Shown here piece by piece: positions 15,948 to 43,830 of a stretch of 64,000 nt of DNA (position 1 is its first letter; every line of letters starts with the position of its first letter). The DNA is from Acetobacteraceae bacterium. Its GTDB lineage: Bacteria > Pseudomonadota > Alphaproteobacteria > Acetobacterales > Acetobacteraceae. Where the stretch lies: assembly GCA_003164135.1 (NCBI GenBank), contig PLSD01000004.1, positions 1-64,000 of the forward strand, given 5' to 3'. Below the pieces are notes generated by a model. It saw only the letters and a program-made list of their open reading frames with translations, ran no database searches and had not been told where the DNA came from. The translations under genes and the position numbers were made by a program.

Positions 15948-15961
15948 TTGATCTGAATCAA
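15948..15961. promoter_or_regulatory. Perfect FNR/FixK box upstream of glgA (distal)
   Basis: TTGATCTGAATCAA, an exact TTGAT-N4-ATCAA palindrome, in the gene-free stretch 15679-16306. A weak -10-like TTAATA lies about 34 bases to the right. It is 345 bases before the glgA ATG, and a second site sits closer to the gene. Confidence 0.7.
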
Positions 15962-16191
15962 TGTAATCCACGCAGGGAGCCGGACACTTAATATGCGGTT
16001 GCCTGTTCACGCATAACTCTTTTGGAGGGGCGAGTTGAACCTGTAATTTTTTGGTTTGGCTCAATGGAAATGCGGCCCTAATATAGGGTGGAGCAGGTGA
16101 TTATGCAGACCACAAGGCTCGTGAAGATCAAGCGAGAATGCGAGCGGCATCCCACAAGAGGCAGGGGATGTAATCATAAGTGGTTATACGG

Positions 16192-16205
16192 TTGATTTAA
16201 ATCAG
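16192..16205. promoter_or_regulatory. Near-perfect FNR/FixK box upstream of glgA (proximal)
   Basis: TTGATTTAAATCAG matches the FNR/FixK palindrome at 9 of 10 fixed positions. It lies 101 bases before the glgA start. A TACCAT -10-like hexamer at 16232-16237 sits roughly where a class II FNR promoter (site near -41) would place it. The rest of 15679-16306 shows no supported gene. Confidence 0.65.
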
Positions 16206-16306
16206 TGTGCCCTGCAGCAGCCTCGCTTACTTACCATATTGATCGTGCGTATCGTCCCCGGGTCTATGGCGCTGTACGGCTTAATATAAAGATAGGAGAG
16301 CTGTCC

Positions 16307-17815
16307 ATGCGCGTGCTTTTCGTGTCATCCGAGGTTTTTCCTCTTATTAAGACCGGTGGGCTCGCGGATGTAAGCGCGGCGCTACCTGAAGCGTTAGCGG
16401 AACTGGGCCTTGAGGTGCAGTTGCTCCTCCCTGGCTATCCCAAGGCCCTGGAAATGGTCGCCAACAAGGCTGTTGAGGTTGAGTTTGCGGATTTCATGGG
16501 GGCTGGTCCGATGCGGGTGATATCGGGGCGCATACCGGACATTGGCCGGCCGATCTGGCTTGTTGACTGTCCCTCTCTGTATCAACGGTCTGGCGGCCCA
16601 TACCAAGATGAAAATGGGCATGACTGGCCCGACAATGCGCTACGCTTCGCGGTGTTCAATCATGTCGCGGCGCAGCTTTCCTGCGGGGTGATGCTGCCCG
16701 GTTGGCGGGCGGATATTGTACACGCCAATGATTGGCATACCGGTCTGGTGCCGATGATTTTGGCGGAAACCCCTGGTCACAGGCCCGGGACATTGCTGAC
16801 GATCCACAACCTCGCCTTTCAGGGCGTGTTTCCTACGGACATTTATCCCCGGTTGGGACTTCCTGGCGGGGATATTGTTCCGGAGGGGATCGAGTTTTAT
16901 GGAAAAATTTCATTCCTTAAAGCTGGGATCAGTTATTGCGATCGTCTGACAACCGTGAGCCCGACCTATGCGCGGGAGATCCTCACCTCTGAATATGGCT
17001 GTGGGCTTGAAGGGCTGTTGCAACATCGCGCGAAAGACACTTTTGGCATTCTCAACGGCGCCGATTATCATATTTGGGACCCGGTGGCTGACGTCCATAT
17101 TCCCGCCACTTATAATTTGCAGAACATCACCGGCAAGCGTATGTGCAAATGGGAATTGCAGGCGGAGCTTGGTCTTGAGGCAGAGCCGGAGGCCCCGCTT
17201 GTGGTTTTTGTAAGCAGGATCACGGAACAGAAGATGGCGGATGTGGTTGCCGCTGTTTTACCCGGTATTATCGAGCGCGGCGCCCAATTCGCGCTGGTCG
17301 GGGACGGAGATCGTGGTATCGAAGAACTATTTGTGGCATTGGCGCGCACGTATCCCGGCCGGGTCGCAATCCGGATCGGGTATGAAGAGCCGCTGGCGCA
17401 CCGCCTTATGGCAGGCGGCGATATCCTGCTCCATCCGTCACGCTTCGAGCCCTGCGGGCTGACGCAGCTTTATGCGATGCGTTACGGCACCTTGCCTATC
17501 GTGAGAAATACCGGCGGCCTCATCGACACTGTGGTGAACGCGTCCGACAGCGCGATCAGGCAGGGCACGGCAACCGGATTTGCGTTCGAGCAGGCAAATT
17601 CGGAGGAATTGCTTGCATGCATTGAACGGGCGCTGGACCTCTACCGGCAGCCTTTGCCCTGGCGTAAGGTACAGCGGCAGGCGATGGCGCAGAATTTCTG
17701 CTGGGCGGAATCCGCGCTCCAGTATCTTGCTCTTTACCGCAGCTTGGCGCCCGATGCCGTTCCGCTGCCGGTGGCTGCAACGGACGATCCTGTTCACGAA
17801 AAAGCTGCCGGATAG
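16307..17815 (+). CDS. glgA: Glycogen synthase (ADP-glucose)
   Basis: GT5 glycosyltransferase that extends alpha-1,4-glucan from ADP-glucose in the cytoplasm. The start at 16307 follows an ATAGGAGAGC ribosome site and gives the family's classic N-terminus MRVLFVSSEVFPLIKTGGLA with the KTGGLADV nucleotide-sugar site; it is 502 residues. The catalytic C-terminal motif is present as HPSRFEPCGLTQLYAMRYGT, followed by a TGGLIDTV segment. It is intact. Two FNR/FixK boxes precede it, suggesting glycogen storage is raised at low oxygen. The stop was once only about 45 bases from the glucan phosphorylase start; an IS66-derived element now separates them. Confidence 0.93.
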   Translation: MRVLFVSSEVFPLIKTGGLADVSAALPEALAELGLEVQLLLPGYPKALEMVANKAVEVEFADFMGAGPMRVISGRIPDIGRPIWLVDCPSLYQRSGGPYQDENGHDWPDNALRFAVFNHVAAQLSCGVMLPGWRADIVHANDWHTGLVPMILAETPGHRPGTLLTIHNLAFQGVFPTDIYPRLGLPGGDIVPEGIEFYGKISFLKAGISYCDRLTTVSPTYAREILTSEYGCGLEGLLQHRAKDTFGILNGADYHIWDPVADVHIPATYNLQNITGKRMCKWELQAELGLEAEPEAPLVVFVSRITEQKMADVVAAVLPGIIERGAQFALVGDGDRGIEELFVALARTYPGRVAIRIGYEEPLAHRLMAGGDILLHPSRFEPCGLTQLYAMRYGTLPIVRNTGGLIDTVVNASDSAIRQGTATGFAFEQANSEELLACIERALDLYRQPLPWRKVQRQAMAQNFCWAESALQYLALYRSLAPDAVPLPVAATDDPVHEKAAG

Positions 17816-17825
17816 CGCGCGAATA

Positions 17826-19454
17826 GTAAGCGATGCTCCGCGGCCCTGTGATTTAGCTTTGACTTTTGCGTCAGGGTGTGGCTGTCGGTTTCCAGCACCA
17901 GGGCATGAGTTCGTCGATTTTTGCCTGGGGCCATCCGTTGACGAGGCGGGTTAGCAGATCGGTGAAGTAGGTCTGTGGGTTGACGTTATTCAGCTTGCAG
18001 GTTTCGATCAGTGAAGCGGCGGCGGCCCAGTTTTCGGCGCCTTCGTCCGAGCCCGCGAACAGCGCGTTCTTCTTCGATAATTTGATGGGGCGCATGCATC
18101 GTTCGACGGTGTTGTTGTCGATTTCGATGCTGCCATCGGCAAGGAATTGCTCCAGGCCGTGCCAGTGGTTCAGTGGATAACGGATCACTTCGGCCATCGG
18201 ACTGCGGGCCGGCAAAGTCTTAAGCTGTGCCTCGAACCAAACCCGTAGATCTGTTACCAGCGGCCGGCTGAGTTCCTGGCGCTTGGCGAGGCGCGTGGCC
18301 GGGTCCTTGCCACGGATTTCGGTCTCGATGCGATAGAGTGCGGCGATTCTCACCAACGCTTCGGCGGCGGTCGGCGACGTGCCGGATTTGGCCGGGTCGT
18401 AAAACCCACGCCTCACATGGCTCCAGCAAAATGCCAGCGTTATCGGCGCATCCTCACGCGCCGGCCCGGTGAGCTGCTTGTAGGCATTGTAGCCATCGCA
18501 TTGTACGATGCCGCGATAGCCGCCGAGCAAAGCATCGGCATGGCGTTTGGCCCGGCCTGTGGCATATTGATAGATCACCGCCGGCGGATCGGCACCGCCG
18601 CAGGCCCGGTCATCCCGTGCTGCCACCCAAAAATAGCCTTGTTTCGTATGGCCGCGGCCGGGGTCAAGAACCTTCATCGTCGTCTCGTCGGCGAAGATTC
18701 GCGCAGATGAGAGCATGATCTCTTTGAGCCGCCGCACCACCGGCGCCATCTCGGCCGCACCATAGCCGACCCAGAAGGCCAAAGTCGCGCGGTCGATCAG
18801 AACGCCCTGCCGGGCCATGATCTGCGCCTGGCGGTAGAGCGGCTGGTGATCGGCAAAGCGCGAGACCATGACGTTTGCCACCAACGCCTCGGTGGGGATG
18901 CCGCCTTCGATCAGCCGTGCCGGCGCGGGTGCTTGGCAGACCACGCCTTCGCAAGCCCTGCAGGCATATTTCGGCCGCCGCGTCACGATCACCCGGTATT
19001 GCACCGGGATCACGTCAAGGCGCTGGGATTCGTCGTGACCGATCTCGATCTCCACCACCTGTGACGGTGCCGGCAGGGGCGGCGGCCGAGCTGGTATCAT
19101 CGTGGCCTCAACAATTGGCACAAAAGCCGGTGCGATGGCCGGCGTCTTACCGGACGGGGCCCGCAATGCCGCACACCGCCAGGCGAAAACTTGGCTGGCA
19201 CAAACCTGCCAGCGCCGCGCTATCTGCGCGACCACCGCACCCGGCACCATTGCCTCCGCCGCAACCAGCGCCTTCTGCTCATCAGACCAACGCCGTCGCC
19301 GGCCACGACCCGTCAGGACCTCAACACGCCGATAAACGCCCTTAGCATCGTCGTTAACATCGTCCATAATGTCGGTGCGAAGCCCTCTCTTGCCTCAAAA
19401 CCGAGAATCACATTCCGTATAAATTGAGAAGAAGGGCCATCGAGCACCGCTTAC
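17826..19454. mobile_element. IS66-family deletion derivative with 8-bp target duplication
   Basis: The ends are imperfect inverted repeats starting GTAAGCGATGCTCCGCGGCC on the left and, read inward, GTAAGCGGTGCTCGATGGCC on the right. Both flanks carry the same octamer CGCGAATA (17818-17825 and 19455-19462), the normal IS66 duplication. The element is 1629 bases, whereas complete IS66 elements are about 2.5-2.8 kb. tnpB and parts of tnpA and tnpC are missing, and the remainder forms one leftward fusion gene. It sits between glgA and glgP. Confidence 0.92.
17871..19367 (-). CDS. TnpA-TnpC fusion from an internally deleted IS66 element
   Basis: The 498-residue frame begins as an IS66 TnpA (RRRRWSDEQKALVAAEAMVP, helix-turn-helix QIARRWQVCASQVFAWR). 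At about residue 108 (VVEIEIG) it passes directly into the TnpC zinc-binding region (SQRLDVIPVQYRVIVTRRPK, then CRACEGVVCQAPAP) and continues to the normal TnpC end. The catalytic signature is present: FADETTMKVLDPG, QCDGYNAY and DNNTVERCMRPIKLSKKNALF. The deletion removed the TnpA C-terminus, all of TnpB and the TnpC leucine-zipper N-terminus without breaking the frame. The shared EIG residues at the joint suggest a short-homology deletion. Whether the fusion can act is unknown. It is strand-opposed to glgA and glgP. Confidence 0.85.
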   Translation of the reverse strand: MDDVNDDAKGVYRRVEVLTGRGRRRRWSDEQKALVAAEAMVPGAVVAQIARRWQVCASQVFAWRCAALRAPSGKTPAIAPAFVPIVEATMIPARPPPLPAPSQVVEIEIGHDESQRLDVIPVQYRVIVTRRPKYACRACEGVVCQAPAPARLIEGGIPTEALVANVMVSRFADHQPLYRQAQIMARQGVLIDRATLAFWVGYGAAEMAPVVRRLKEIMLSSARIFADETTMKVLDPGRGHTKQGYFWVAARDDRACGGADPPAVIYQYATGRAKRHADALLGGYRGIVQCDGYNAYKQLTGPAREDAPITLAFCWSHVRRGFYDPAKSGTSPTAAEALVRIAALYRIETEIRGKDPATRLAKRQELSRPLVTDLRVWFEAQLKTLPARSPMAEVIRYPLNHWHGLEQFLADGSIEIDNNTVERCMRPIKLSKKNALFAGSDEGAENWAAAASLIETCKLNNVNPQTYFTDLLTRLVNGWPQAKIDELMPWCWKPTATP

Positions 19455-19480
19455 CGCGAATATGAAGGAATGTCGAGTCT

Positions 19481-19993
19481 ATGACGCAACAGGTAGCAGG
19501 TAGTCATGCAAGCGAGCAGCTTTCATCCATGGGGGTTGATGGTTTTGAGTACTTGGCTGAGCTTGCGTTGGATATGTGCTCGGCGTGGAACCATGCCGCC
19601 GACGAGGTATGGCGGCAACTCGATCCTGTGTTGTGGGAGTTGACGCACAATCCCTGGGTTGTCCTCCAGACGGTCTCGCGGGAAAAACTTCAGAATATTT
19701 GCGGGAATGCGGATTTTCGTAAAAGCGTTGAAGATTTGGTTCATGCACGGCGGAATGCTGCGGCCGCTCCGGGGTGGTTTCAGCAAGCCTACCCGCAGGC
19801 GCCGCTGAGCTGTGTTGCCTATTTTAGTATGGAATTCATGTTGAGCGAGGCTTTGCCCATCTACTCGGGGGGGCTTGGCAATGTGGCGGGCGATCACCTC
19901 AAGGGCGCGAATGATCTAGGCGTGCCGGTGGTTGGCGTGGGGTTGCTCTACCAGCAAGGGTATTTTCGCCAGGTCACGGCGGATAACCCTTGA
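19481..19993 (+). pseudogene. glgP: Alpha-glucan (glycogen) phosphorylase, N-terminal fragment
   Basis: The 170 residues match the N-terminus of the GT35 alpha-glucan phosphorylase branch with the DUF3417 domain: LALDMCSAWNHAADEVWRQL, then VAYFSMEFMLSEALPIYSGGLG and GVGLLYQQGYFRQ. A functional protein is about 700-850 residues and needs a C-terminal PLP lysine, so this fragment cannot work. The match ends at about 19985, where the sequence becomes an IS1182-like transposase remnant on the other strand. The start (19481, after AAGGAATG) and spacing indicate it once followed glgA in an operon. Confidence 0.88.
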
Positions 19994-20221
19994 CCTCGGT
20001 GTAGGCCGCCATGATTGCAGAAAGATCAAGCTCCTCGGACACCAGATCACGAACCAAATGGGCAGGATGGCCGCTCGGCACAAAGTCAGCAACTGAAGGC
20101 GGGAAAAGCCAAACCTCATCAATTTCCCAGGGACGAAATACTTTGCTTATGCAAAAAAGAGAATCACCAAAATCTCGCCTTGTCGAGATTCACTCAGAAA
20201 TTACCGGGACACGCTCCTAGC
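19985..20221 (-). mobile_element. IS1182-like element remnant (left end and transposase N-terminus)
   Basis: Read leftward from about 20135 the sequence encodes KVFRPWEIDEVWLFPPSVAD, then PAHLVRDLVSEELDLSAIMA and AAYTEVKGY. This is the typical N-terminus of IS1182/IS5-like transposases (LVRDLVxEELDLSAI). An ATA stands where the start ATG is expected. The outer end probably lies near 20218, where the PRC-barrel coding sequence stops. A hairpin AATCTCG-CCTTG-TCGAGATT lies in the leader. Only about 50 transposase codons remain before the sequence joins glgP. Confidence 0.7.
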
Positions 20222-20333: not shown

Positions 20334-20355
20334 GTCCTTCCCAATTGGTGCGCGA

Positions 20356-22758: not shown

Positions 22759-22759
22759 T

Positions 22760-24280
22760 TCACGGAGAATAGACCTGTGTCAGGCGGCCGGTGAACAGCA
22801 TCCAGACCGCCAGGATGCCAAGCGCGACCAGGGCAATAGCCACGATCAGCTCAACCGGCTTGAACGGAAACTCCTTTGGAGCGTGCTCCAAGCGCGCCCA
22901 GATGAAAACAAGATTTCCGAGTGCGAAGAACGCAGCGCCGCCGAGCATGTATTCCAGGCCGGCGGCATAAACCAGCCAGAAACCGTATATCGTGCCCAGC
23001 ACGCTGCTGATCAGTGCCTGCGTCCTGCCCATCCTTGCCGTTTCCGGATATTGCCCGGTTGCAATCAGCTTCCAGAGAAACCCGGTAGACCCGATGTAGG
23101 CGGGCAAGATCATCACGCCGGTGATCGACAACATCACGTTCCAGGCATTGTTAGAGAAGTAGACCAGAATCATCATCACCTGCATGACGATCGTCGACAC
23201 CCAAAGAGAAACCGAAGCAGCGCCCATCTTGTTGGTCGCGGCAAAGATTTTGGGATAGCTTCCATCTTTTGCGCCGGCCCAGGGAAGTTCAGCCACAAGC
23301 AGCGTCCACACCAGCCAGCAGGAAAGGATTGAAATGATGACGCCGGCGTTGACAAGGTACTCGCCCCACTTGCCCACAATCGTGTCCATGACTGCCGCCA
23401 TCGACGGGGGAGCAAGCGCGGACAATTGGGCCTGCGACTCAACGCCGAACGGGAGTACCGATACGAGGACGTAAATCGCTGTCGTGATCAAAAATCCAAG
23501 CAGTGTCGCCCGGCTGACGGTTTTCGCGTCGGAGTTATCAGACATGACAACGGCACCCTCAATGCCAATGAAGACCCAGAGAGTTACCAGCATCGTGCTC
23601 TTAACCTGAACGAGGAGGCTGCCGAGCGGCTTGGCAGTGGCGACGTTGGCGCTCACATTACCCCAGAAAGAGCTGCTCCAGATACCAGCCTTCATGGCGA
23701 GGGCAACAACCGCGATAAAGACGGCAATCGGAATGAACTTGGCGATGGTTCCGATCACATTGAGCGCAGCCGCGCCCTTGATACCGCGCAGCACGAGCCA
23801 GTTCATGATCCAGAAGACGACCGAGGCGGCAATCACCGCTTCCCACGTGTTGCCGCCTTTGAAATACGGCGGATAGAAGTAGTTGACCGTGTCCATAAGC
23901 AGCACGCCGAACCCGACATTACCGAAAGCCGACGAGAGCCAGTAGCCCCAAGCAATCTGAAAGCCGGCATATTTGCCGAAGCCCTTACTGGAATAGGTGT
24001 AGATGCCCGATTTCAGTTCAGGTTTGATGTCGGCCAGCACCTGGAAGGTTCGCGCCAGGAAGAAGATGCCCAGGCCCGAAACAAGCCAGGCGATCAGCAC
24101 CGCGATCAACGAGGCCGACTGCGCCATGTTTTGCGGGAGGTTGAACACGCCACCCCCGACCATGGCGCTGATTACCAGCAGGGTGAGTGCGATCAGGCCG
24201 ACGTTATGGGGGCTAGCCGCCTTGCCGCCAGCCGGCACCGCGCTTGTGGTCAACGTCGTTGGCTTGCTATCCATTGTCAT
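22760..24280 (-). CDS. APC-family basic amino acid / polyamine antiporter
   Basis: A 506-residue, 12-helix amino-acid/product antiporter of the ArcD/AdiC-like branch. The first helix has the family's VISAMVGGGVFNLPQNMA (GxGxF-like substrate site), and later segments include IGTIAKFIPIAVFIAVVAL and WVFIGIEGAVVMSDNSD. It follows the two decarboxylase genes in the same direction, with 43 bases between. It probably exchanges arginine or ornithine outside for the decarboxylation product (agmatine or putrescine) inside, giving net proton consumption in acid. A paralogue lies at 39769-41280. Confidence 0.88.
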   Translation of the reverse strand: MTMDSKPTTLTTSAVPAGGKAASPHNVGLIALTLLVISAMVGGGVFNLPQNMAQSASLIAVLIAWLVSGLGIFFLARTFQVLADIKPELKSGIYTYSSKGFGKYAGFQIAWGYWLSSAFGNVGFGVLLMDTVNYFYPPYFKGGNTWEAVIAASVVFWIMNWLVLRGIKGAAALNVIGTIAKFIPIAVFIAVVALAMKAGIWSSSFWGNVSANVATAKPLGSLLVQVKSTMLVTLWVFIGIEGAVVMSDNSDAKTVSRATLLGFLITTAIYVLVSVLPFGVESQAQLSALAPPSMAAVMDTIVGKWGEYLVNAGVIISILSCWLVWTLLVAELPWAGAKDGSYPKIFAATNKMGAASVSLWVSTIVMQVMMILVYFSNNAWNVMLSITGVMILPAYIGSTGFLWKLIATGQYPETARMGRTQALISSVLGTIYGFWLVYAAGLEYMLGGAAFFALGNLVFIWARLEHAPKEFPFKPVELIVAIALVALGILAVWMLFTGRLTQVYSP

Positions 24281-24323: not shown

Positions 24324-26621
24324 TTATTGCTTCACGCAAAGGACCCTGTAGAGGCCGTCCTCGACCTCGACGCCGTGGATGTCGTGGGCGAATCCGGGAA
24401 TTGCCGCATCGAAAGCTTCCAGAGCCTTGAGGTAGCCCAGCAGCGGGCCGCCGGGTTCGCCTGCGCTTTCGCCGGGCATGAGCAAGGGAATGCCTGGCGG
24501 ATAGGGCACAACCCCGGTAGCAACCGTTCGCCCGGCCATCTGTTCAAGTGTCAGGGATTCGATATCGCCATTGACGAGCCGCTCGTAGGCTTCCACCGGC
24601 GAGAAAACGGGGGTCGGCAGAACACCGAAGCCGGCCGAAAGAAGTTCGGTGGTCTTGAATTTTTTCATGGCCGCAAACATCGCCGTGGCCAGGTCTGCAA
24701 GCCCGGTTTTGCCGTAGTGTTCCGGGTGAGCAGCGGCGAGTGCTGGGATCGCCTGGGCGAGAGGCGTATTGGCGAGGATATCACGATGAAAGCCGAGCAA
24801 GGCATTGATCAGCGTGCCCCATTTACCGCGCGTAATACCCAGTGAGAACAGGAAAAGGCAGCTAAAGTCCGTGGTTTTTTCGACCACGATCCCCTGCGCA
24901 TCAAGATAGGCGGTCAGCAACGCAGCCGGAATGCCGGTGGCCGCCAGCTTGCCATCGCGTCCCATGCCGGGAGTGACCACCGAGACCTTGATCGGATCGA
25001 GCATGCAATAGCCGTCCTCCAGGTCGCCAAACCCATGCCAACTGTCGCCGGGGTGAAGCACCCAGGCGTTCGGGTCGCACGCAAGCAACTCCGGATCGGC
25101 AAGGCGGAATGGTGTATACGCGCCGGATTTCGCGTCGATGATATCGTCGGGCTGCCAGGCCGAGAAAAACCAGGTTCCCTTGGCGGCAAACTCGGCGCTG
25201 AGCCGCGCCAGTGTCTGGCGGAATGCCACCGCCTCGCGGATTGATTCGCCGGTGAGCGCCGGTCCCGATGGACCATCCATCATCGCGGCGGCGACATCAT
25301 TCGAGGCTATGATCGCGTATTGCGGGGAGGTCGATGCATGCATCATGAAGGCTTCGTTGAAGCGCGCATGGTTGATAGGGCGCCGCCCATCGCGGATGTG
25401 AATGTAGGACGCCTGAGAGAGGGCCGCCAGCAGCTTATGCGTGGACTGCGTCGCAAACATCGTCGGGCGGTCCTTTTGGGACGTGCCGGGGTCGCCGTGC
25501 ATGGCGAAGCGTTTGGCATAAATCGGATTGAAGCGTGCGTAGCCGTACCAAGCCTCGTCGAAATGCAGCCGGTCCACGGATTGCCCAAGCAGCATTTCAA
25601 CCCGTTCGACATTGTAGCAGAGACCGTCATAGGTTGAATTGGTGATCACCGCATGCACGGGCTTTGGATCGATGCCGCTCTTTACAAGGGCATTGGCCGC
25701 AATGCTCTCGCGGATGGCCGCCGGTTCGAGGTGCTCCGGATGAATCGGGCCGATGATGCCCAGATAGTTGCGCGACGGCATCAGATAGGTCGGTATCGCG
25801 CCGGTCAGCGTCATGGCGTGTTCGACGGATTTATGACAATTGCGGTCGCACAAGGCGATCTGGTTGCGGGTCACGCTCGACATCAGGATAACCCGGTTGG
25901 AAGTCGACGACCCGTTTGTCACGAAATAGGTGCGATCCGCGCCGAACACGCGCGCCGCGTAGCGTTCAGCTTCGCCGATCGGGCCTGAATGATCCAGGAG
26001 TGAACCTAATTCTCCCACCGAGATCGAGAGATCTGAGCGGAATAACTCTTCGCCAAAGAATTCGAAGAAGGCACGCCCGACTGGGTGCTTGAGAAACGCG
26101 GTGCCGCCCGCATGTCCGGGCGTGTGCCAGGAGTACTCGTATGTGCCGGCAAACTTTGCCAGCGCCTTGAACATCGGCGGTAGCAAGGTGGCCCGGTAAC
26201 GGTCGATCGCGGCCATGACACGCCCGCCGATAAAGTCAGACGTATCCTCGAACAACCAGACATAATCATTGACGGCCTCAAGGACGCCGGAGGGGATTTC
26301 GGCAAGGGAGCCACGAGACGCGAGCAGGAACACAGGAAGGTTCGAGGTGTGCGCGCGCACGGTGGCGATCACCTGTCGCGCGGCTTCGTGATCGGCCCCC
26401 CCCGCCAATTCCCAGTCGACCATAACGGCCTGAAGCAAGGAATGGGTGGCGATCTGCGCCTCGGCTTCACCCTGGGATACCGCGTCGACGACTTCGATGT
26501 CGCGGTCACGCAGATCCTGTACCAACGCTGTGGTCGCACGGCCCGGAGCAGTCATGCTATCCATGCCGTTATGAACTACCAGCACGCGCCGGTTGAATAG
26601 TATCCCTGGAACACTTGCCAT
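24324..26621 (-). CDS. Orn/Lys/Arg decarboxylase, AdiA-like (probable arginine decarboxylase)
   Basis: A 765-residue PLP-dependent decarboxylase of the acid-induced AdiA/CadA/SpeC class. It has an N-terminal flavodoxin-like wing domain (residues 1-130), an aminotransferase-like core with the PLP lysine in QSTHKLLAALSQAS (Lys about 396), SSTSNRVILMS upstream and HFDEAWYGYARF, and a C-terminal domain. The length and the THKLL-ALSQASYIH pattern are closest to AdiA (756 residues). It would consume a cytoplasmic proton per amino acid. Its start lies 2 bases after the upstream decarboxylase stop, so translation is coupled. Substrate preference is inferred only. Confidence 0.85.
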   Translation of the reverse strand: MASVPGILFNRRVLVVHNGMDSMTAPGRATTALVQDLRDRDIEVVDAVSQGEAEAQIATHSLLQAVMVDWELAGGADHEAARQVIATVRAHTSNLPVFLLASRGSLAEIPSGVLEAVNDYVWLFEDTSDFIGGRVMAAIDRYRATLLPPMFKALAKFAGTYEYSWHTPGHAGGTAFLKHPVGRAFFEFFGEELFRSDLSISVGELGSLLDHSGPIGEAERYAARVFGADRTYFVTNGSSTSNRVILMSSVTRNQIALCDRNCHKSVEHAMTLTGAIPTYLMPSRNYLGIIGPIHPEHLEPAAIRESIAANALVKSGIDPKPVHAVITNSTYDGLCYNVERVEMLLGQSVDRLHFDEAWYGYARFNPIYAKRFAMHGDPGTSQKDRPTMFATQSTHKLLAALSQASYIHIRDGRRPINHARFNEAFMMHASTSPQYAIIASNDVAAAMMDGPSGPALTGESIREAVAFRQTLARLSAEFAAKGTWFFSAWQPDDIIDAKSGAYTPFRLADPELLACDPNAWVLHPGDSWHGFGDLEDGYCMLDPIKVSVVTPGMGRDGKLAATGIPAALLTAYLDAQGIVVEKTTDFSCLFLFSLGITRGKWGTLINALLGFHRDILANTPLAQAIPALAAAHPEHYGKTGLADLATAMFAAMKKFKTTELLSAGFGVLPTPVFSPVEAYERLVNGDIESLTLEQMAGRTVATGVVPYPPGIPLLMPGESAGEPGGPLLGYLKALEAFDAAIPGFAHDIHGVEVEDGLYRVLCVKQ

Positions 26622-26623
26622 TG

Positions 26624-28990
26624 TTATTCTTTTACGACGTAGGTGTGGAACTGGATCTTGCCTTCGACTTCGTCGGGATAGACGCCCTGCACTTCGTAGG
26701 CGAAGCCGGGGAACCGGTTGAAAGCCTCTTCGAAAACTAGGAAATAGTCAAGCATTGGCTGCGCCCGGGCATCGTAGCGCTCGCCGGGAACCACGATCCC
26801 GATGCCTGGCGGATAGATGAGCGCCAGCACGGCCGCGATCCGGCCTTTACACTGCGCCAGCGGTAGATAGTCGACATTGTTGCCGACGAGGGCCTCCGTG
26901 GCCTGCTGCACCGTCATCGCCTGTTCCGGGAAGTGCTCGGCGCGGAAGCACAGGCGCTGCAACTCCTTGATGTCATGGTCGCGATAGAACTGGTGCATCT
27001 CGTCGCAGAGGCGCTGCAGGGTGTAGCCTGCATAGCGGGCCGGATAACGTGCAAGCGTTGTCGGCAGCACATCTTCGAGCGGCGCGTTGGCGTCATACAA
27101 ATGCTTGAACGCCACCAACCGGGAGATCAGTGATGCACATTTACCCGGTTCAATGGCTGGCGTCATCAAGAACAAAATGCTGTTGAGGTCGCACTTCTCG
27201 GGAACGATATTGTTTTCCCTGAGATAGGCGGCCAGCACGGTTGCGGGAACCCCGATCGGCCCGTATTCACCCGTTTTGCGGTCAAGACCTGGCGTGATCA
27301 GGGTCAGCTTGTTGGGGTCAGTCATCGCCCAATTAGGCGAGCTGTGGCGGAAGCCGTGCCAGTTGGCGCCCGGCGTCAGCGTCCAGCAAACCTGTTCCCT
27401 GAGCAGGACTTCCGTCGGAACCTGCTCCCACGGGACGCTATCGAGATCAGGGCTGACCTTCGAGCCCTTGAGCGTCACGACGTCGGGCACGAACGGATCA
27501 AAAAACCAGGCTGTGCGTTCGTCGTGGGGCGCGCTTGCGAAACCCGCACCCAGCGTACGCAGCTTCTTGCGCGTCTCGATACCCAGCCGCACTGCGTCGT
27601 CCCAGAGCGCCAGCCCGTTCCTACCCTTGTGCATGTGGGCATCAACATCCAGGCTCGCGAACAACGGATAAAACGGCGATGTTGAGCAATGCAGCATGAA
27701 CATTTCGTTGAACCGGCGGTGCTCGGTGCGCCGGACCTGGCCTTTAATGTGATTGTCGCGGACGTGGATCTGCGAAGCCTGCGAAAAGCCAGCGAGCTGC
27801 TTGTGCGTGGATTGTGTTGCGATGATGCCCGGGCTATTTGCATCGAGGTTTTTGATGCCCATGGCGTAATGGTCTTCGAACAGCGGGTGGAATTTCATGA
27901 AGCCCGCCCATGCCTCGTCGAAATGCACGTAATCGCAAAGGTGGCCAATCCGCTCCAGTAGTTTGCTGGCGTTGTAAATGGTGCCGTCGTAGCTGCACTG
28001 TTCCATGACCGCGAGACGAAATGGCCGCTCACGCCTCCATGCGTTCTTATCTGTGACGAGCGGATGTGTACGGATTTGTTCGCGTAGCTTTGCCTCGTCC
28101 AGGGCTTCATAATCCATCGGGCCAATCAGGCCCTGTGGGTTGCGGTCGGTTTCGATATAAATCGGGACGGCGCCGGCCAGCAGCAGTGCGCCATGGTGGA
28201 TCGACTTGTGATTATTGCGGTCGAAGAGAACCAGGTCACCACGCTTGAGCAGCGCCGCGGAAACCACTTTGTTGGACGTCGATGTGCCATTGAGGATAAA
28301 GTACGTCCGATCGGCGCCAAAGACCTTCGCTGCCGCCTTTTCTGCCCGCAATGCCGGCCCTTCATGAATGAGCAGGTCGCCCAGTTCAGGTACCGAATTG
28401 TCGATGTCGTTGCGGAATACTGCCTCTCCAAGGTGCTCAACAAAAAGCCGGCCGGCAGGGCTGCGGCGATAGAACGCGCCGCCTTGATGACCGGGACACG
28501 TCCACATTTGGTTGCCCTCGTAATCATAGTCCATCAGTGCGCCGAAGAAGGGCGGTTTGAGCTCTGCCGCGTAGCGCTCAAGCGCGAAGATCACTTCCTT
28601 AGCCGTGAAGCCGGGCGTTTCGTTGTCGAGGTAAGCGTACCCGGTTACCTCGCCAAGCGGCGCGAGGGACAATGTCTCGACACCCTTGAATTCGCTCAGG
28701 AGGTAGATCGGCGTATCCAGGCCACGGTCCTGGCGGATGAATTGAATAAGGTGCTGCACCTCGGGCTCGTCAGGACCGTCGATGGCAAGTAGAAAGCAGC
28801 CAATCGACATATCGCTCTCCGCGGCGACCCTCGCCCCGGTTAGCGTCGGCACAACGTCAGCGCGGTAGCCATAGCCAGACATCGCGTCCAGAAGGCGCTG
28901 CAAAAGGCGAGCTTCGTTGCTCTCGGGGGCATTTTTGAAGACTGTGCTGTAGGCGAGGAAGTGGAAGAGCTTGTTATAGGGAACCGTCAT
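26624..28990 (-). CDS. Orn/Lys/Arg decarboxylase, ornithine-decarboxylase-like
   Basis: A 788-residue PLP decarboxylase, taking the ATG at 28990, which is preceded by a GAAGGAAG ribosome site; upstream in-frame codons lack one. The PLP lysine is in QSTHKQLAGFSQAS (Lys about 397). The segment GTSTSNKVVSAALL then FDRNNHKSIHHGALLLAGAV resembles biodegradative ornithine decarboxylase (SpeF/SpeC) more than AdiA. This first gene of a three-gene acid-resistance operon would work with the second decarboxylase and the antiporter. An FNR/FixK box lies 159 bases upstream. An arginine or lysine substrate cannot be excluded. Confidence 0.85.
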   Translation of the reverse strand: MTVPYNKLFHFLAYSTVFKNAPESNEARLLQRLLDAMSGYGYRADVVPTLTGARVAAESDMSIGCFLLAIDGPDEPEVQHLIQFIRQDRGLDTPIYLLSEFKGVETLSLAPLGEVTGYAYLDNETPGFTAKEVIFALERYAAELKPPFFGALMDYDYEGNQMWTCPGHQGGAFYRRSPAGRLFVEHLGEAVFRNDIDNSVPELGDLLIHEGPALRAEKAAAKVFGADRTYFILNGTSTSNKVVSAALLKRGDLVLFDRNNHKSIHHGALLLAGAVPIYIETDRNPQGLIGPMDYEALDEAKLREQIRTHPLVTDKNAWRRERPFRLAVMEQCSYDGTIYNASKLLERIGHLCDYVHFDEAWAGFMKFHPLFEDHYAMGIKNLDANSPGIIATQSTHKQLAGFSQASQIHVRDNHIKGQVRRTEHRRFNEMFMLHCSTSPFYPLFASLDVDAHMHKGRNGLALWDDAVRLGIETRKKLRTLGAGFASAPHDERTAWFFDPFVPDVVTLKGSKVSPDLDSVPWEQVPTEVLLREQVCWTLTPGANWHGFRHSSPNWAMTDPNKLTLITPGLDRKTGEYGPIGVPATVLAAYLRENNIVPEKCDLNSILFLMTPAIEPGKCASLISRLVAFKHLYDANAPLEDVLPTTLARYPARYAGYTLQRLCDEMHQFYRDHDIKELQRLCFRAEHFPEQAMTVQQATEALVGNNVDYLPLAQCKGRIAAVLALIYPPGIGIVVPGERYDARAQPMLDYFLVFEEAFNRFPGFAYEVQGVYPDEVEGKIQFHTYVVKE

Positions 28991-29148
28991 ATGGAACTTC
29001 CTTCGCTCAGGTATTAGAATAAAGTTCGTCGACGTCCTCGCCGGCAAGACTCGGATGTAACTTGCTGTTCGATGCGCCTTCGGAGGCATGCAATTAACAG
29101 ATGGTAATCTCCGAAAACGGCTCTGGCATGGTCACGCGGCCATAGTAA

Positions 29149-29162
29149 TTGATCTCAATCAA
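29149..29162. promoter_or_regulatory. Perfect FNR/FixK box between decarboxylase operon and 29450 gene
   Basis: TTGATCTCAATCAA fits TTGAT-N4-ATCAA exactly. For a rightward promoter, the hexamer TTTAAT (29185-29190, 5 of 6 to TATAAT) sits exactly where a class II site centred at -41.5 requires. No equally good -10 is seen for the leftward decarboxylase operon. The box is the only clear signal in the gene-free stretch 28991-29449. Confidence 0.72.
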
Positions 29163-30111: not shown

Positions 30112-31929
30112 ATGCTAGGTATGCCTGTGCGACTTCGTCAGCCTGCCGTAGCCGGCGTGCAACCATCAATTCCGCTGATGACAACGCCGGAAAATCTTGA
30201 CCACATGCTGCATAATTGGCAGAGCCGCTTTACCGGCGGACGTTCGCCCAGCACGGTGGCACTCGCCTTCATGGACTGGGCCGCGCATACGGCAAACTCC
30301 CCATTCAAAACAGCGGCGCTCGGGCAAACGGCGATGACGCAATGGCAACGTCTTGTCCGCACAATGATGGGTGGAGAAAATTCAATCGCACCGCAACCGG
30401 GCGACCACCGCTTTGTCCATCCGGCATGGCAGCAGCGCCCTTATAATTTACTTACCCAATCGGTGTTGCTCGGCGAGGAATGGTGGGACCAGCTTGTGCG
30501 CGGCGCCGGCGGCGTCAGCCCGCCCAACGAACGAATGGTGGCTTTTACCGTGCGCCAATTTCTCGACCTGATTTCGCCTTCCAATATTCCCTGGCTCAAC
30601 CCGGAGGTGATAGAGGCCACACGTGCCAGTGGTGGCCGCAACCTCGTGGACGGTATGACCAACTTCCTGCGCGATCAGTTGGCTGCGCAGGGCCACGCCG
30701 CGATGAAGGGGTTTAAAGTCGGCGAGAACCTCGCCGCCACGCCCGGCAAGGTGGTTTTCCGCAATACGTTGATGGAGCTGATCCAGTACACGCCGACGAC
30801 CGCGAAGGTGGGTGCTGAACCAGTGCTGATCGTGCCGGCCTGGATCATGAAATATTACATTCTCGACCTGTCAGCCAATAACTCTCTGATCGGCTGGCTG
30901 GTGGCGCAGGGGCGCACGGTGTTTGCGATCTCCTGGCGCAATCCTGGCGCCGAGATGCGCGATACCTCGCTCGATGATTACCGCCGCGAGGGGGTTATGG
31001 CCGCTATCGACGCGGTGCAAACCATCTGCGGGGCGGCAAAAATCCATGCGACCGGTTACTGTCTCGGTGGTACGTTGCTGACGATCGCGGCGGCGGCCAT
31101 GGCGCGCGATAACGACGACCGGCTCGCCAGCCTGTCGCTGTTCGCCGCGCAGACTGATTTTACCGAAGCCGGTGAGTTGCAACTGTTTATCACCGAGGAC
31201 CAGCTTAACTTCCTCAACGACATCATGCAGACGCAAGGTTATCTCGACAGCGCACAGATGGGTGGTGCGTTTGAGATGTTGCAGTCCAACGATCTCGTCT
31301 GGTCGCACGCGATCCGCAGCTACCTGCTCGGCGAACAAGATGCGCCGTTTGACCTGATGGCCTGGGATGCCGACGGCACACGTCTGCCGGCACGCATGCA
31401 CATCGAATATCTACGGCAACTCTATCTTCATAATGCCCTCGCGGAAGGACGCTTTGAAGTTGCGGGAAATCCGTTGGAACTCGGCGATATTAAGCTGCCG
31501 ATATTTGTCGTGGGAACCGAGCGCGACCACATCGCGCCGTGGCATTCGGTGTTCAAGCTGCATCTGCTGAATGATGGTGAAATCACCTTCGTGCTGACGT
31601 CCGGCGGCCATAATGCCGGCATCGTCAGCGAACCTGGCCATGCGCATCGCCACTTCCGGATCCGTGTCCGGGACGCTGGTGCCCGCACCCTTGGCCCGGA
31701 TGAATGGGAGCGCGATACCGCAGCGCAGGATGGGTCGTGGTGGGTGGAATGGGGCAAATTTCTCGGCCAGCATTCGACGAAAAATGTTGTGCCGCCACCC
31801 ATGGGGGGGCTGAACTCAAACCGCTCTGCGACGCCCCAGGCACCTATGTGCTGGAAGGATAAGAAACCATGCAGGATGCAGACGCAAGCGCCGAAACCTA
31901 TATTGAGAACCGGACGTTTGACGAGCTGA
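30112..31929 (+). CDS. phaC: Class I poly(R)-hydroxyalkanoate synthase (3' end probably frameshifted)
   Basis: Polymerises (R)-3-hydroxyacyl-CoA into PHB granules. The start follows AAGGAG. The lipase-like box GYCLGG carries the catalytic Cys (residue 317), with Asp472 (ERDHIAPW) and His500 (SGGHNAGI) completing the triad. The N-terminal region is typical of PhaC. From about codon 563 the frame departs from the family: after a run of seven G (31803-31809) the expected ending GAELKPLCDAPGTYVLEG lies in another frame and stops at 31862, six bases before the next gene. As written the frame runs 605 residues and overlaps the next gene by 61 bases. A G-run length change or sequence error is likely. 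Confidence 0.9.
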   Translation: MLGMPVRLRQPAVAGVQPSIPLMTTPENLDHMLHNWQSRFTGGRSPSTVALAFMDWAAHTANSPFKTAALGQTAMTQWQRLVRTMMGGENSIAPQPGDHRFVHPAWQQRPYNLLTQSVLLGEEWWDQLVRGAGGVSPPNERMVAFTVRQFLDLISPSNIPWLNPEVIEATRASGGRNLVDGMTNFLRDQLAAQGHAAMKGFKVGENLAATPGKVVFRNTLMELIQYTPTTAKVGAEPVLIVPAWIMKYYILDLSANNSLIGWLVAQGRTVFAISWRNPGAEMRDTSLDDYRREGVMAAIDAVQTICGAAKIHATGYCLGGTLLTIAAAAMARDNDDRLASLSLFAAQTDFTEAGELQLFITEDQLNFLNDIMQTQGYLDSAQMGGAFEMLQSNDLVWSHAIRSYLLGEQDAPFDLMAWDADGTRLPARMHIEYLRQLYLHNALAEGRFEVAGNPLELGDIKLPIFVVGTERDHIAPWHSVFKLHLLNDGEITFVLTSGGHNAGIVSEPGHAHRHFRIRVRDAGARTLGPDEWERDTAAQDGSWWVEWGKFLGQHSTKNVVPPPMGGLNSNRSATPQAPMCWKDKKPCRMQTQAPKPILRTGRLTS

Positions 31930-34898: not shown

Positions 34899-34911
34899 AG
34901 GAGAACAGGAA

Positions 34912-39484: not shown

Positions 39485-39768
39485 CGAGGCGGAGCTCTTG
39501 ATGCAGCATAGAGGAGAAGGATAAATTGGGCCATTGGCGAGTATCCTGCTAGGCCGATTATCGCGAGGCATTCTTGCCATCCTCTCAAAGCTGCGGATGC
39601 ATTCTGGTGCGGCACCATAGCGAAGCGAGCGATGGCCGACTTACTTAAGGCAACCAAAAGTGACTGGATTCGTTTGGATTTCGGGTGCAAAAGCGAAGAA
39701 CCATTTGTTGTCAGAGAGGAACTCAATGACACGGCAGGTGCGGTTTATGAAGGAAATCAAAAGCCCAA

Positions 39769-41280
39769 TCACCCGAGTTTAACGGCGCCATCTTTGAATA
39801 GCACGACAGCGGCGATTGTCGCGGCTAGGAGTAAAAGCATTGCAAACTTCTCGTATCCATTAAACACAATTGTTAGATGCTGTTCGCGCTGTGCCCACCA
39901 GAATACGGGAACACCTATGATGTACATGACGGCAGAGAGAAGAAGGAATTGCAAACCTGCCGCATAGAGAAGCCAGATGGAATAAGCAGTGCCAAGAATG
40001 CCGGTGATGGCCGAAGCCATGCGTGTCTCACTCTTCGTTGGGTTATAATCTCGATTGCCCGAAAATTTCCAAAGAAACGCGGTACATGCAAGATATGGTG
40101 GCAGAGACATTGCGCCGGTAACAGTGATAAGCCAGATCCAGGCATTATGCGCGAACAGCACCGAGAACATCGCCATCTGCATGACAATGCTGGAAATCCA
40201 CAGAGCGGGAGCGGCCGCGTGATGGCTATTTTCAAGGGCTAGAAATTTTGGGAAGACGCCATCCTTCGCGCCCATGAGGGGTAGCTCTGCGGTCAAGATT
40301 GTCCAGGCAAGCCAGCTACTAAGCACCGCTATCAGCAGAGCCATATTAACCAATGTACCACCCCAGGACCCCACGACGGCATTCAGCACAAGCGCGGCAG
40401 ACGGATTGTTTAAGTGCGCGAGTTGAGATTGCGTCATAATCCCGAAAGGCAGCATCGAAATCAGCACGTAGAGAATAAAGCAGACCAAAAGGCCAATGAA
40501 TGTGGCTTTGCCAACATCGTTCTGAGACCGTGCCCGGTCGGACACGACGACAGCCCCCTCAATGCCAAGGAACACCCATAGGGCGACGAGCATCGTGCTC
40601 TTCATCTGGCCGAGAATACCACCAAGATGAGCTGCTTTACCCCAAAAATCGATGCTAAAATGCTCCAGCTTCACATAGGCAAACATAATGATAATGGCTG
40701 CGATCAGTCCTGTTAGTTTCAAGATGGTCGCGACTAAATTCAGCACCGCGACGCGCCTGACGCCGCTCAGTACAAGAAAACACATCACCCAAATTAAGAG
40801 TGAGCCACCAATTAGTGATGGAATGTTCTGCCCCTGGCCAAACATGGGAAAGAAATAGCCCAAAACCTGCATTGTCAGCACAGCAAAAGCGACGTTACCA
40901 AGGGCTGAACTGAGCCAGTAGCCCCAAGCCATCATGAATCCTGCGAATTTTCCAAAACCCTCGCGCGCGTAGGAGTAGATGCCAGCAGTGAGATCTGGCC
41001 GTTGATTGGCAAGGGTACGGAAAGTATTGGCAAGGAAGAACATGCCGAACAGGGTTACACCCCAGGCAATGGCAATAGCCCCAAGGCTCGCAGTTGCAGC
41101 CATATTTTGTGGCAGGTCGAATGCACCGCCGCCGATCATCGAGCTAATGACCATACCGCTCAAAAGCAGCAACCCAATCTGGCGCGATTTTGGTTTTGTC
41201 ACGGCAGGCCCTTTCTGTGCCAGGACCACGTCGTGATCGGAAGTTTTTCGCAGCGTAGAGGTCTTCCTGAACAGCATCAT
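39769..41280 (-). CDS. APC-family amino acid antiporter (second copy)
   Basis: A 503-residue, 12-helix transporter related to the antiporter at 22760-24280: the first helix has the same VISSMIGGGAFDLPQNMA motif, and both contain a WVFLGIEGAVVVSDR-like segment. It probably exchanges a basic amino acid for its decarboxylation product. It is the second gene of a leftward pair; its ATG overlaps the SulP stop (ATGA). There is no decarboxylase next to it, so it may serve the operon at 24-29 kb or handle a different substrate. Confidence 0.87.
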   Translation of the reverse strand: MMLFRKTSTLRKTSDHDVVLAQKGPAVTKPKSRQIGLLLLSGMVISSMIGGGAFDLPQNMAATASLGAIAIAWGVTLFGMFFLANTFRTLANQRPDLTAGIYSYAREGFGKFAGFMMAWGYWLSSALGNVAFAVLTMQVLGYFFPMFGQGQNIPSLIGGSLLIWVMCFLVLSGVRRVAVLNLVATILKLTGLIAAIIIMFAYVKLEHFSIDFWGKAAHLGGILGQMKSTMLVALWVFLGIEGAVVVSDRARSQNDVGKATFIGLLVCFILYVLISMLPFGIMTQSQLAHLNNPSAALVLNAVVGSWGGTLVNMALLIAVLSSWLAWTILTAELPLMGAKDGVFPKFLALENSHHAAAPALWISSIVMQMAMFSVLFAHNAWIWLITVTGAMSLPPYLACTAFLWKFSGNRDYNPTKSETRMASAITGILGTAYSIWLLYAAGLQFLLLSAVMYIIGVPVFWWAQREQHLTIVFNGYEKFAMLLLLAATIAAVVLFKDGAVKLG

Positions 41281-43001
41281 CGCGTCGTTTTCCCGAAGGC
41301 GGGAGGTGCCACAGCCGGACCGGGTAGGTCATGTGGCTGGTTACCCAAGGCGGCTCGAACGGCGTCGATAGCTTCGTGGAGAGTCGAGAAGATATGGGCT
41401 GCGCCGGCGGCGTCGGTAATGCCGTGGCGGTCAAGGTCGGCACGAAGGTAAGCGCTGACACGAGCAAAAACCATGGTGATGCTGTGATTTTCCAACTCGG
41501 TGAGCAGCTCGCGGATGGCGTGGGCGGCGGAGAAGTCGATGTCGGTAATGGCGCTGGCGTCCACAACGAACCAATGAATTTGGGTTGGGTTGTGGTCAGT
41601 CAGGGTATGCACGTCGTCGATGAAGCGGTTGTAGTTGGCGTAGAAGAGGTCCGCGCCAAAACGATAGACGATGAAACCCGGCTCGGTTTGCTCGTTTGGT
41701 ACGATGGGGGCTGGCTCCCAAATTCCCGTGGCGCTGGGCATGAGGATCGTCGTGTTGGGGCGGTAGCTATGGCGGACATGGCGAAAGAGCGAGAGGGCGA
41801 TCGCCAAGAGGATACCTTGTTCGACGCCGATACCCACAACGGCAGCTGCGGTGATGGCGGCGAGCATGAATTCACCAGGACTTTCGCGGCGAATATTCCG
41901 CAGTGCGGCGATGTCGATCATCCCGATTGCGACAGTGAAGACGATGGCACCGAGGACGCAGCGCGGGAGATATTGGAGTGGTCTGGTAAGGAAGAGCAGG
42001 ACCAACAGAACGAGCGCAGCGAAAACGAGTTGGGCGATCTGGCTGCGCGCACCAGCGCGATCCGCCATGGCGGTTTGGCTGGGGCTGCCGTTGACGACGA
42101 AGGTGCCACTGATAGCGGCGGCGGCATTGGCGGCGGCGAGACCAAGAATGTCGGCATTTTCGTCGACGGTTTCGCGGTAACGCGTGGCGAAGACGCGCGA
42201 TGTGGCAGCACTCTGCGTGATGATCATAACGAAGCATGAGGCGGCGACCGGCAGGAGCTCGAGGGTTTCACTCCAGGTGACGGCGGGTAGGCTGAACGGG
42301 GGCAGGCCACCGGAAACTGGGCCGATGATGGCGATGCCATTTGCAGCAAAGTGGAATTCGGCGCTTGCGGTGATAGTGCCAAGGACGGCAAAGAGCGGGA
42401 GCGGGACACGGGGGCTGAAGCGATTACCGAGCAGTATGGCCGCCGCGACAAAAGCAGCAAGGCTGAGTGTTGGGAGGTTGGTGCCGTGCAAAGCGCGGGC
42501 GACCTGCCAAATTTGGACGACGGTGTTGTGGGCGTGGGCGGTGAGGCCGAGCATGTCACTTAGCATGGAAATGCCGACTTGCAGTCCGACCCCGGCCAGA
42601 AATCCGACCAGGACCGTGCGAGAGAGAAAATCCGCGAGGAAGCCTAGTTTGAAGATGCGGGCCAGGAGTAGGAAGCCCGCGGTCAGTAAGGCAACCATGC
42701 TGGCAAGCGCCATATATGTCGTGGTGCCTGGTGTCGCCATTTGCGAGAGAGAGCTGAAAAGGATGGCAGCAGTGGCGCTGTCCGCGGCGACGACAAGGTG
42801 ACGGGACGAGCCGAAGGCGGCAAAACCAACCAGCGGCAACAGCACTGTATAGAGGCCGGTGATGGGCGAGGTACCAGCGATGCGGGTGTAGCCAATGACC
42901 TGCGGGATGTTCATTGAGGCCAGTGAGATACCCGCGACCGCGTTGCGGATGGTGCCGCCACGGGAGAACGGGCCTAGTCCACCGAAGAGGGGCAAGCGCA
43001 T
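41277..43001 (-). CDS. SulP-family anion transporter with STAS domain
   Basis: A 574-residue transporter, taking the ATG at 43001 because a GGAGG site stands 7 bases upstream. Residues 20-420 are the SulP membrane domain (LASMNIPQVIGYTRIAGTSP, GLYTVLLPLVGFAAFGSSR, SQTAMADRAGARSQIAQLVF). The C-terminal STAS domain spans about residues 450-560 (FYANYNRFIDDVHTLTDHNP, FVVDASAITDIDFSAAHA). SulP proteins carry sulfate, bicarbonate or other anions; the substrate is not readable here. Coupled translation with the antiporter downstream suggests a shared ion or pH role. Confidence 0.9.
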   Translation of the reverse strand: MRLPLFGGLGPFSRGGTIRNAVAGISLASMNIPQVIGYTRIAGTSPITGLYTVLLPLVGFAAFGSSRHLVVAADSATAAILFSSLSQMATPGTTTYMALASMVALLTAGFLLLARIFKLGFLADFLSRTVLVGFLAGVGLQVGISMLSDMLGLTAHAHNTVVQIWQVARALHGTNLPTLSLAAFVAAAILLGNRFSPRVPLPLFAVLGTITASAEFHFAANGIAIIGPVSGGLPPFSLPAVTWSETLELLPVAASCFVMIITQSAATSRVFATRYRETVDENADILGLAAANAAAAISGTFVVNGSPSQTAMADRAGARSQIAQLVFAALVLLVLLFLTRPLQYLPRCVLGAIVFTVAIGMIDIAALRNIRRESPGEFMLAAITAAAVVGIGVEQGILLAIALSLFRHVRHSYRPNTTILMPSATGIWEPAPIVPNEQTEPGFIVYRFGADLFYANYNRFIDDVHTLTDHNPTQIHWFVVDASAITDIDFSAAHAIRELLTELENHSITMVFARVSAYLRADLDRHGITDAAGAAHIFSTLHEAIDAVRAALGNQPHDLPGPAVAPPAFGKTTR

Positions 43002-43218
43002 CCGGATCCTCCATATTCTTTTGAAGATGCTATCAGGCCGTGGTTTAAACCCCCCTCGCGCCGAGCGCAAAGTGATCGGCGGCGGCCGATTTGGCGGGCG
43101 CCACATTCCTGATCTGTACTGAAACGGGCTGCAGACCTACACCGCCTGCCCGGAGTTCACCGGAGGATCAATCTGGTGCAGAACCTGGGCTGTTGAAACA
43201 ATGTCAAGGAGTAACGCC

Positions 43219-43735
43219 ATGCCAAAGACCATCCGGGAAGCCGTCGCCGTATTCGACACCGCCGAGGCGCTCGACGCCGCTGTCTTCGCGCTGGACACGC
43301 GTGGCTTCGACCGTACTGCGTTCTCGCTTCTGGCAAGCGAAGAGGCCGTCACCCAGAAACTGGGTCACCGTTATCAGCAGGTGAAAGAGGTCGAGGACGA
43401 TCCGAACGTACCGCGGGATACCTTCTTTTCGCGGACCTCCCGGCTTAAAGCCGAATACTTGCCCGCACCGGCCTTGCCTCGATCGGGTTCCTCATGATGG
43501 CTGGCGTCGGCAGCGGCTTGCCGGCCATCATTGCAGTCGGTGGCGGGGCTTTGATCGGCGCGGCACTCGGCCGGCTGATCCATCAGCACCACGCCACAGT
43601 TGTCAAGGAACAGCTCGCACGAGGCGGGCTGCTGCTTTGGGTGAATGTCCGCAATGCGAGCGAGGAAAAAAAGCCCTGGAGATTCTGCGCGTTCACTCCG
43701 CTCATGACGTTCATCTCCATGAGATCCCCGCATAA
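43219..43735 (+). pseudogene. General-stress-protein (GSP17M-like) membrane protein, two frameshifts
   Basis: The start (MPKTIREAVAVFDTAEALDA) follows AAGGAG and resembles the N-terminal domain of general stress protein 17M-type proteins (AVxxFDTxExLDAAVxxL). The frame breaks near 43460 (EYL then ARTGLASIGFLMMAGVGSGL with a glycine-rich membrane helix) and again in an A7 run near 43670 (EEKK then ALEILRVHSAHDVHLHEIPA), with a stop at 43733-43735. Reading through both shifts gives about 170 residues. Either the gene is decaying or the homopolymers are miscalled. A similar short remnant occurs near 50130-50190. Confidence 0.7.
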
Positions 43736-43816
43736 TGTTTTGTCCGTCAGCCCCCCAATAAATCGCATTGATGCTTGCGTCTGCCTCTGATCCTGCGTCA
43801 TTAAAAAGACGTTAGG

Positions 43817-43830
43817 TTGATCGAGATCAA
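43817..43830. promoter_or_regulatory. Perfect FNR/FixK box upstream of the phasin gene
   Basis: TTGATCGAGATCAA, an exact TTGAT-N4-ATCAA palindrome, 96 bases before the phasin ATG. No convincing -10 hexamer is evident at the class II spacing, so the promoter class is open. Confidence 0.68.

Follow-up and report, generated by a model that had tools for sequence, protein, structure and literature searches.

The DNA analysed here is a window of 64,000 nucleotides (64 kb) at the beginning of contig C4 (101,466 bases), in the draft genome of an Acetobacteraceae bacterium (4,415,081 bases in 137 contigs) that was assigned to the genus Acidocella. It encodes a glycogen synthase (glgA), two amino-acid decarboxylases, a polyhydroxybutyrate (PHB) synthase, a phasin-like protein and a regulator of the Crp/Fnr family (Table 1). 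Ahead of the glgA, decarboxylase and phasin-like genes lie copies of the motif TTGAT-N4-ATCAA. We consider the boxes in the window to be candidate operators of an FNR/FixK-type low-oxygen regulon, at a probability of roughly three in four. Their readers would be an FNR protein and/or several proteins that share the recognition helix ETVSR.

Table 1. Boxes and genes of the 64-kb window
Feature	Position	Strand	Basis or remark
FNR/FixK-type box, exact	15948..15961		distal to glgA; ends 346 bp before glgA ATG
FNR/FixK-type box, one mismatch	16192..16205		proximal to glgA; ends 102 bp before glgA ATG
glgA, glycogen synthase	16307..17815	+	NCBIfam GlgA NF001899, 638.8 bits (cut-off 459)
Amino acid permease	22760..24280	-	Pfam AA_permease_2
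Second OKR (arginine-type) decarboxylase	24324..26621	-	Pfam OKR_DC_1; best NCBIfam match arginine decarboxylase, below cut-off
Ornithine decarboxylase (ODC)-type OKR decarboxylase	26624..28990	-	NCBIfam PRK13578, 808.6 bits (cut-off 794); Pfam OKR_DC_1
FNR/FixK-type box, exact	29149..29162		before decarboxylase operon
PhaC, PHB synthase	30112..31929	+	Pfam PhaC_N, PHBC_N; start 950 bp past box 29149
FNR/FixK-type box, exact	43817..43830		before phasin-like gene
Phasin-like gene	43927..44331	+	Pfam Phasin_2, E 2.2e-4, 21.8 bits, under curated cut-off 24.9
Plasma-membrane proton-efflux P-type ATPase	44554..47061	+	TIGR01647, 960 bits (cut-off 615.5); follows phasin-like gene
Crp/Fnr regulator, window type	56687..57415	-	Pfam HTH_Crp_2, cNMP_binding; ETVSR helix; no CxxC...C
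One-mismatch box	56910..56923		within coding sequence of Crp/Fnr regulator gene

A scan of the window with up to one mismatch allowed returned five sites, three exact and two with one mismatch. Four of these (15948, 29149 and 43817, all exact, and 16192) reproduce the positions given in a preliminary description of this DNA, which had not listed the fifth, at 56910. The latter was rejected as an autoregulatory site because it lies inside the regulator gene, and it is probably a chance match. Shuffled windows held on average 0.11 exact boxes, and none of 100 reached three; with one mismatch allowed the mean was 1.63, and 3 of 100 shuffles reached five. The earlier chance expectation of 0.06 exact boxes was therefore somewhat low, while the conclusion drawn from it holds. 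Measured against the genome's own density, which predicts 0.59 exact boxes per 64 kb, a count of three or more has p 0.023. At this value the window is mildly rich in boxes and not exceptional in its own genome, where other box-rich contigs are C45 (5 in 63 kb) and C97 (5 in 93 kb).

The whole genome contains 41 exact copies of TTGAT-N4-ATCAA and a single copy of the reversed pattern. When the spacer was varied from 0 to 12 bases, 98 sites were found in total, 57 of them spread over the 12 spacers other than N4 (average 4.75). The N4 spacer is thus 8.6-fold richer than the others (Poisson 2e-24). We then compared the placement of the boxes relative to genes, using genes and starts predicted by a codon-score gene finder that was built for this analysis and trained on 15 window genes; the control consisted of 29 of the 57 other-spacer sites, those listed in the spacer scan. 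The preliminary description had pointed to such a genome-wide scan, and in it the N4 boxes tend to avoid genes: 8 of 41 lie wholly within a predicted gene, compared with 22 of the 29 control sites (Fisher p 5e-6). Put the other way, 33 of 41 N4 boxes and 7 of 29 controls reach beyond or fall outside predicted genes, and the share that is both clear of genes and no more than 400 bp before a start is 27 of 41 for the N4 boxes and 3 of 29 for the controls. Among the eight inside boxes, the assignments of L034 and L048 depend on low coding scores, and L053 merely touches the stop end of a gene. One N4 site (L045) sits between convergent genes, with no promoter role apparent. Contigs C59 and C86 share an apparently duplicated stretch with two boxes 55 bp apart (L032 4001-4069 and L036 4001-4069), with no well-scored gene start within about 290 bp.

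The glgA gene offers a comparison within the genome. A second copy on contig C85 is 77% identical to that of the window and is also preceded by boxes. Upstream of the C85 copy, 13 of the 14 bases of box 15948 are retained, as are 11 of the 14 bases of box 16192 at the equivalent place about 100 bp before the ATG. In the alignment of the two upstream regions, identity is 24/28 in the boxes and 215/411 outside them (p 2e-4), and both box stretches, along with the ribosome site, rank among the best-conserved 14-base windows. We regard glgA as the probable target of boxes 15948 and 16192. Downstream of the window glgA lies an IS66 element (17871-19993) and, beyond it, a fragment that matches the neighbour of the C85 glgA at 84% identity; the window glgA operon looks to have been broken by the IS66 insertion.

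Chance matching as the origin of the boxes could appeal to the p value of 0.023 for the window and to the eight boxes that fall inside genes. The shuffles, the spacer control, the placement of the boxes and the conservation between the two glgA copies all argue otherwise. We rejected chance on these grounds and consider it extremely improbable.

Box 29149 starts 159 bp before the likely start of the ODC-type gene on the minus strand, a start picked from coding score and ribosome site within an open reading frame (ORF) that opens at 29089. On its other side, the box ends 288 bp before an uncharacterized plus-strand ORF. The ODC-type decarboxylase is the probable target, and the arginine-type decarboxylase and the permease are probably in one operon with it. 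Box 43817 ends 97 bp before the likely ATG of the phasin-like gene, which was chosen by the gene finder in an ORF opening at 43849. This gene is the probable target of the box, although the name phasin is weak, and the proton-efflux ATPase is possibly a second gene behind it. Phasin homologues are weak and were found in just 5 of 37 other genomes of the genus, too few for a footprint.

Elsewhere in the genome, Pfam was run on 30 selected neighbours of boxes. These include cytochrome bd oxidase subunit I (C20), cytochrome c (C124), a pyridine-nucleotide/4Fe-4S reductase (C40), an iron alcohol dehydrogenase (Fe-ADH; C92), 5-aminolaevulinate dehydratase (hemB) and Nramp (C109), and a prismane/hybrid-cluster protein and an ATP-synthase beta-type operon (C97). 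On C85 boxes adjoin the second glgA, glucokinase and a BON protein, and on C45 an amino-acid permease with an OKR decarboxylase, Hsp20 and a CBS-pair protein. The less typical neighbours include a PAS/HD protein, and one neighbour has no Pfam family at all. Judged by what is already established about genes of these names, the kinds found beside the boxes broadly match the profile of a low-oxygen regulon.

A search of the genome with PF13545 gave hits in 13 places, six of them above the family cut-off, which correspond to six Crp/Fnr proteins. Five share the ETVSR helix. One, on contig C113, is an FNR with CDDCGARHSGLC, a CxxCx7C cysteine motif, and its gene has an exact box 28 bp ahead of its own start. 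The C40 protein is short and FixK-like, and the remaining three (C67, C97a and the window protein on C4) are paralogues of the window type; all four are without the FNR cysteine motif. The preliminary description had correctly credited the window protein with an E-x-x-S-R helix, which reads E-T-V-S-R, and with no iron-sulfur cysteines. The sixth protein (C97b) adjoins the hybrid-cluster-protein gene and has the helix ENLSR. A tree was built from 31 selected regulators among those detected. In it the window type forms one group (10 rows, 100/99), separate from the group of cysteine-bearing FNR proteins (11 rows, 100/99); row G053 and the hcp-linked protein are on long branches. The best match of the window regulator family is in Acidocella aquatica of the same genus (NZ_BSOS01000039.1), and a first contig scan with the window regulator as single query found no relative. 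The boxes, their enrichment and placement, the conservation between the glgA copies, and the number and helix of the regulators were all obtained by computation.

Several observations accompany these regulators. A cysteine at residue 225, near the C-terminus of the window regulator, is invariant in nine aligned window-type regulators and could have a redox role. In the window (54900-60461) the regulator is flanked by a copper-type P-ATPase (58095-60461) and an MscS-like channel with a fused cyclic-nucleotide-binding domain. The paralogue on C97 has a different setting, in the order ammonium transporter, ftsK, regulator, cupin, glutathione S-transferase and PHB depolymerase (L138 6134-13401). 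Gene sizes suggest that this order recurs in several Acidocella genomes, a hint of a link to PHB. A gene of 770-800 amino acids beside window-type regulators elsewhere was considered as a copper ATPase and rejected, the C97 copy being FtsK by Pfam.

The preliminary description tied the boxes to the one regulator encoded in the window, which as their dedicated reader would form a local FixK-type circuit, with regulator and targets together on one plasmid-like contig. The shared contig and the ETVSR helix are consistent with this. Because five paralogues share the recognition helix, though, a nearby regulator gene is no evidence of ownership, and the gene of the window regulator is not itself preceded by a box.

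In other genomes, we counted as window-type any regulator of at least 42% identity; these genomes are drafts, so that absence is not proof. From 30 decarboxylase loci (L065-L094) we excluded two of the window genome itself (L065, L086), fragments or second pieces (L084, L090, L093, L094) and one of a distant class (L085); an exact box does occur at the excluded fragment L084 (G002), but close to another gene. The 23 loci retained include five operon-internal starts and one that is cut, leaving 17 starts to count. Six of the 17 are boxed with at most one mismatch (two exactly), and in every case the box stands 53-62 bp before the start. In the six draft genomes that carry these boxed decarboxylases (G003, G006, G013, G015, G017, G018) no window-type regulator was detected, and in two of them (G013, G015) a gene for a cysteine-motif FNR lies about 0.9 kb from the boxed decarboxylase. 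Conversely, none of the four counted decarboxylase starts in genomes with a window-type regulator (G009, G011, G016, G023) is boxed; all four follow, at a distance of 60-71 bp, a gene read in the same direction, so they may be operon-internal. Around window-type regulators of six other genomes, seven stretches of 6-20 kb contain no exact box.

Other comparisons favour a part for the window type. One contig of Acidocella aquatica holds a window-type regulator, a permease-decarboxylase operon whose permease gene is preceded by two boxes (one exact, starting 227 bp ahead of it, and one with a single mismatch, starting 89 bp ahead), and two more boxes, but the exact box closest to the regulator is 18 kb away. 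The window genome has three window-type paralogues and the highest box count of the 61 genomes searched. Across 37 of the 38 genus genomes (G044 left out; rounded sizes, drafts 73-100% complete), the 8 with a window-type regulator average 5.65 boxes per Mb and the 29 without it 2.74 (Mann-Whitney p 3.4e-4, or 9.7e-4 minus the window genome, both uncorrected for kinship). Since relatives share history, we treat this doubling as a lead.

Ownership by the window regulator alone was rejected in view of the five ETVSR paralogues, the box-free neighbourhoods and the boxed decarboxylases in genomes where the window type was not found, and a dedicated role for this protein is unlikely. The circuit proposed earlier for storage and acid-defence genes thus survives in part: FNR/FixK-type control is upheld by the spacer, the placement, the glgA conservation and the low-oxygen neighbours, whereas its assignment to the window regulator is not. 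Most likely the boxes are read by the FNR protein and/or by several of the five ETVSR proteins jointly.

A relative that senses nitric oxide or redox state (of the DNR/NnrR or hcp-linked type) might read the boxes in place of an oxygen-responsive protein. A box does lie between a Crp/Fnr gene and the hybrid-cluster-protein gene, and NnrR sites are said to overlap the FixK consensus (PMC5596199). The helix of the hcp-linked protein differs in its middle, and many of the boxed genes belong to low-oxygen respiration, haem, storage and stress. We consider such a reader very unlikely.

The signal behind FNR/FixK-type control is most likely low oxygen. It would activate a Crp/Fnr dimer through the Fe-S cluster of the C113 FNR or, alternatively, because paralogues that have no cluster, the window protein among them, become more abundant. 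The active dimer would then bind the boxes and switch on storage and acid-consuming genes. The boxes are probably working FNR/FixK-type operators, and FNR/FixK-type control of the glycogen, amino-acid decarboxylase and PHB-granule genes is, as a prediction, well supported.

Some findings weigh against this interpretation. Gene starts depend on our gene finder, which missed phaC at 30112. In other Acidocella genomes, nine glgA genes (44-47% identical) are not preceded by a box, so that the glgA footprint is limited to the C85 copy, and none of the five loci with phasin homologues has an exact box. The excess of boxes at decarboxylases is modest: 6 of 17 starts compared with 27 of 198 other first genes boxed within 250 bp, 14 of them exactly (p 0.03), a null that is conservative in that it takes in box-rich FNR-gene loci. 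Some boxed genes are atypical for low oxygen (P450, HisG, a 2-oxoglutarate oxygenase, an amidohydrolase). Finally, we infer binding, activation and oxygen as the signal, all three, from sequence.

Contig C4 carries mobility genes, namely a TrwC relaxase, a type II/IV secretion ATPase, T2SSF, a shufflon-type protein, and IS66 and ISL3 transposases, which suggest a conjugative plasmid or similar element. The secretion/pilus ATPase, shufflon-type protein and relaxase are located in window 1-7000 and in C4 beyond the window (L063, L064). The contig also encodes enzymes of sugar metabolism (phosphoketolase, transketolase, transaldolase, PGI, aldolase and phosphoglucomutase), a MaoC-PTA protein, acetate kinase, PPK2, Usp and ClC. 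Partly similar gene sets occur on plasmids of Acidiphilium cryptum, Lichenicola cladoniae, Polymorphobacter megasporae and Caballeronia. All four bear a proton ATPase relative, and some share PPK2, acetate kinase, phosphoketolase, and pentose-phosphate or stress genes. The four plasmid stretches (32-42 kb each) contain no exact box and three one-mismatch boxes together, a further point against our interpretation; since a similar gene set exists there without exact boxes, such boxes are not needed everywhere by the set. Tentatively, a transmissible set of low-oxygen storage and fermentation genes, with its own Crp/Fnr paralogue, may have been wired into the host FNR regulon by gain of boxes within the genus, while a third clade of Crp/Fnr proteins, present in 8 of the 38 genomes of the genus, may have co-evolved with an enlarged regulon joining carbon storage and acid-consuming decarboxylation.

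From computation, these results sketch an FNR/FixK regulon for an Acidocella-type acidophile, one in which glycogen, amino-acid decarboxylase and PHB-granule genes are tied to what is probably a low-oxygen signal. In the literature collection searched (listings, and parts of some papers), we found no account of such a regulon, of FNR in Acidocella or of FNR with decarboxylases in acidophiles, though one may have been published; the portions consulted of PMC4999443 and PMC7677001 contain nothing on the subject. For an acidophile the regulon is ordinary in kind. Its notable feature is that a single genome combines many boxes with several regulators that are paralogues, which lets the division of one site among paralogous Crp/Fnr proteins be tested.

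The motif itself is the rhizobial FixK/FixK2 consensus (PMC5596199), and the Bradyrhizobium microoxia tables have Usp, CBS, phasin and phosphoketolase entries (PMC6515984). By profile, the top solved-structure match of the window regulator family is a FixK2 protein (4i2o, 90.8 bits), with FNR nearly as close (89.6 bits). The window protein differs from the FixK model NF050806, whose name points to Caulobacter, reaching 95.7 bits against a cut-off of 300. In Burkholderia, the lxa locus is a cluster of 50 genes for stress, metabolism, electron transfer and regulators that is up at low oxygen (PMC6127331). Contig C4 carries genes of similar kinds (Usp, a Cl channel, a proton ATPase, storage genes), a tentative likeness at the level of gene kind. 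In Herbaspirillum seropedicae, Fnr1/Fnr3 exert direct control over phaC1, a phasin and cydAB (PMC5934665), so that PHB genes under multiple Fnr proteins have precedent. Like the window genome, this bacterium has several Fnr paralogues; its Fnr regulons were separated by RNA sequencing and chromatin immunoprecipitation sequencing. The window genome differs in having boxes at glgA and amino-acid decarboxylase genes, and in that four of its five ETVSR regulators are without the cysteine motif.

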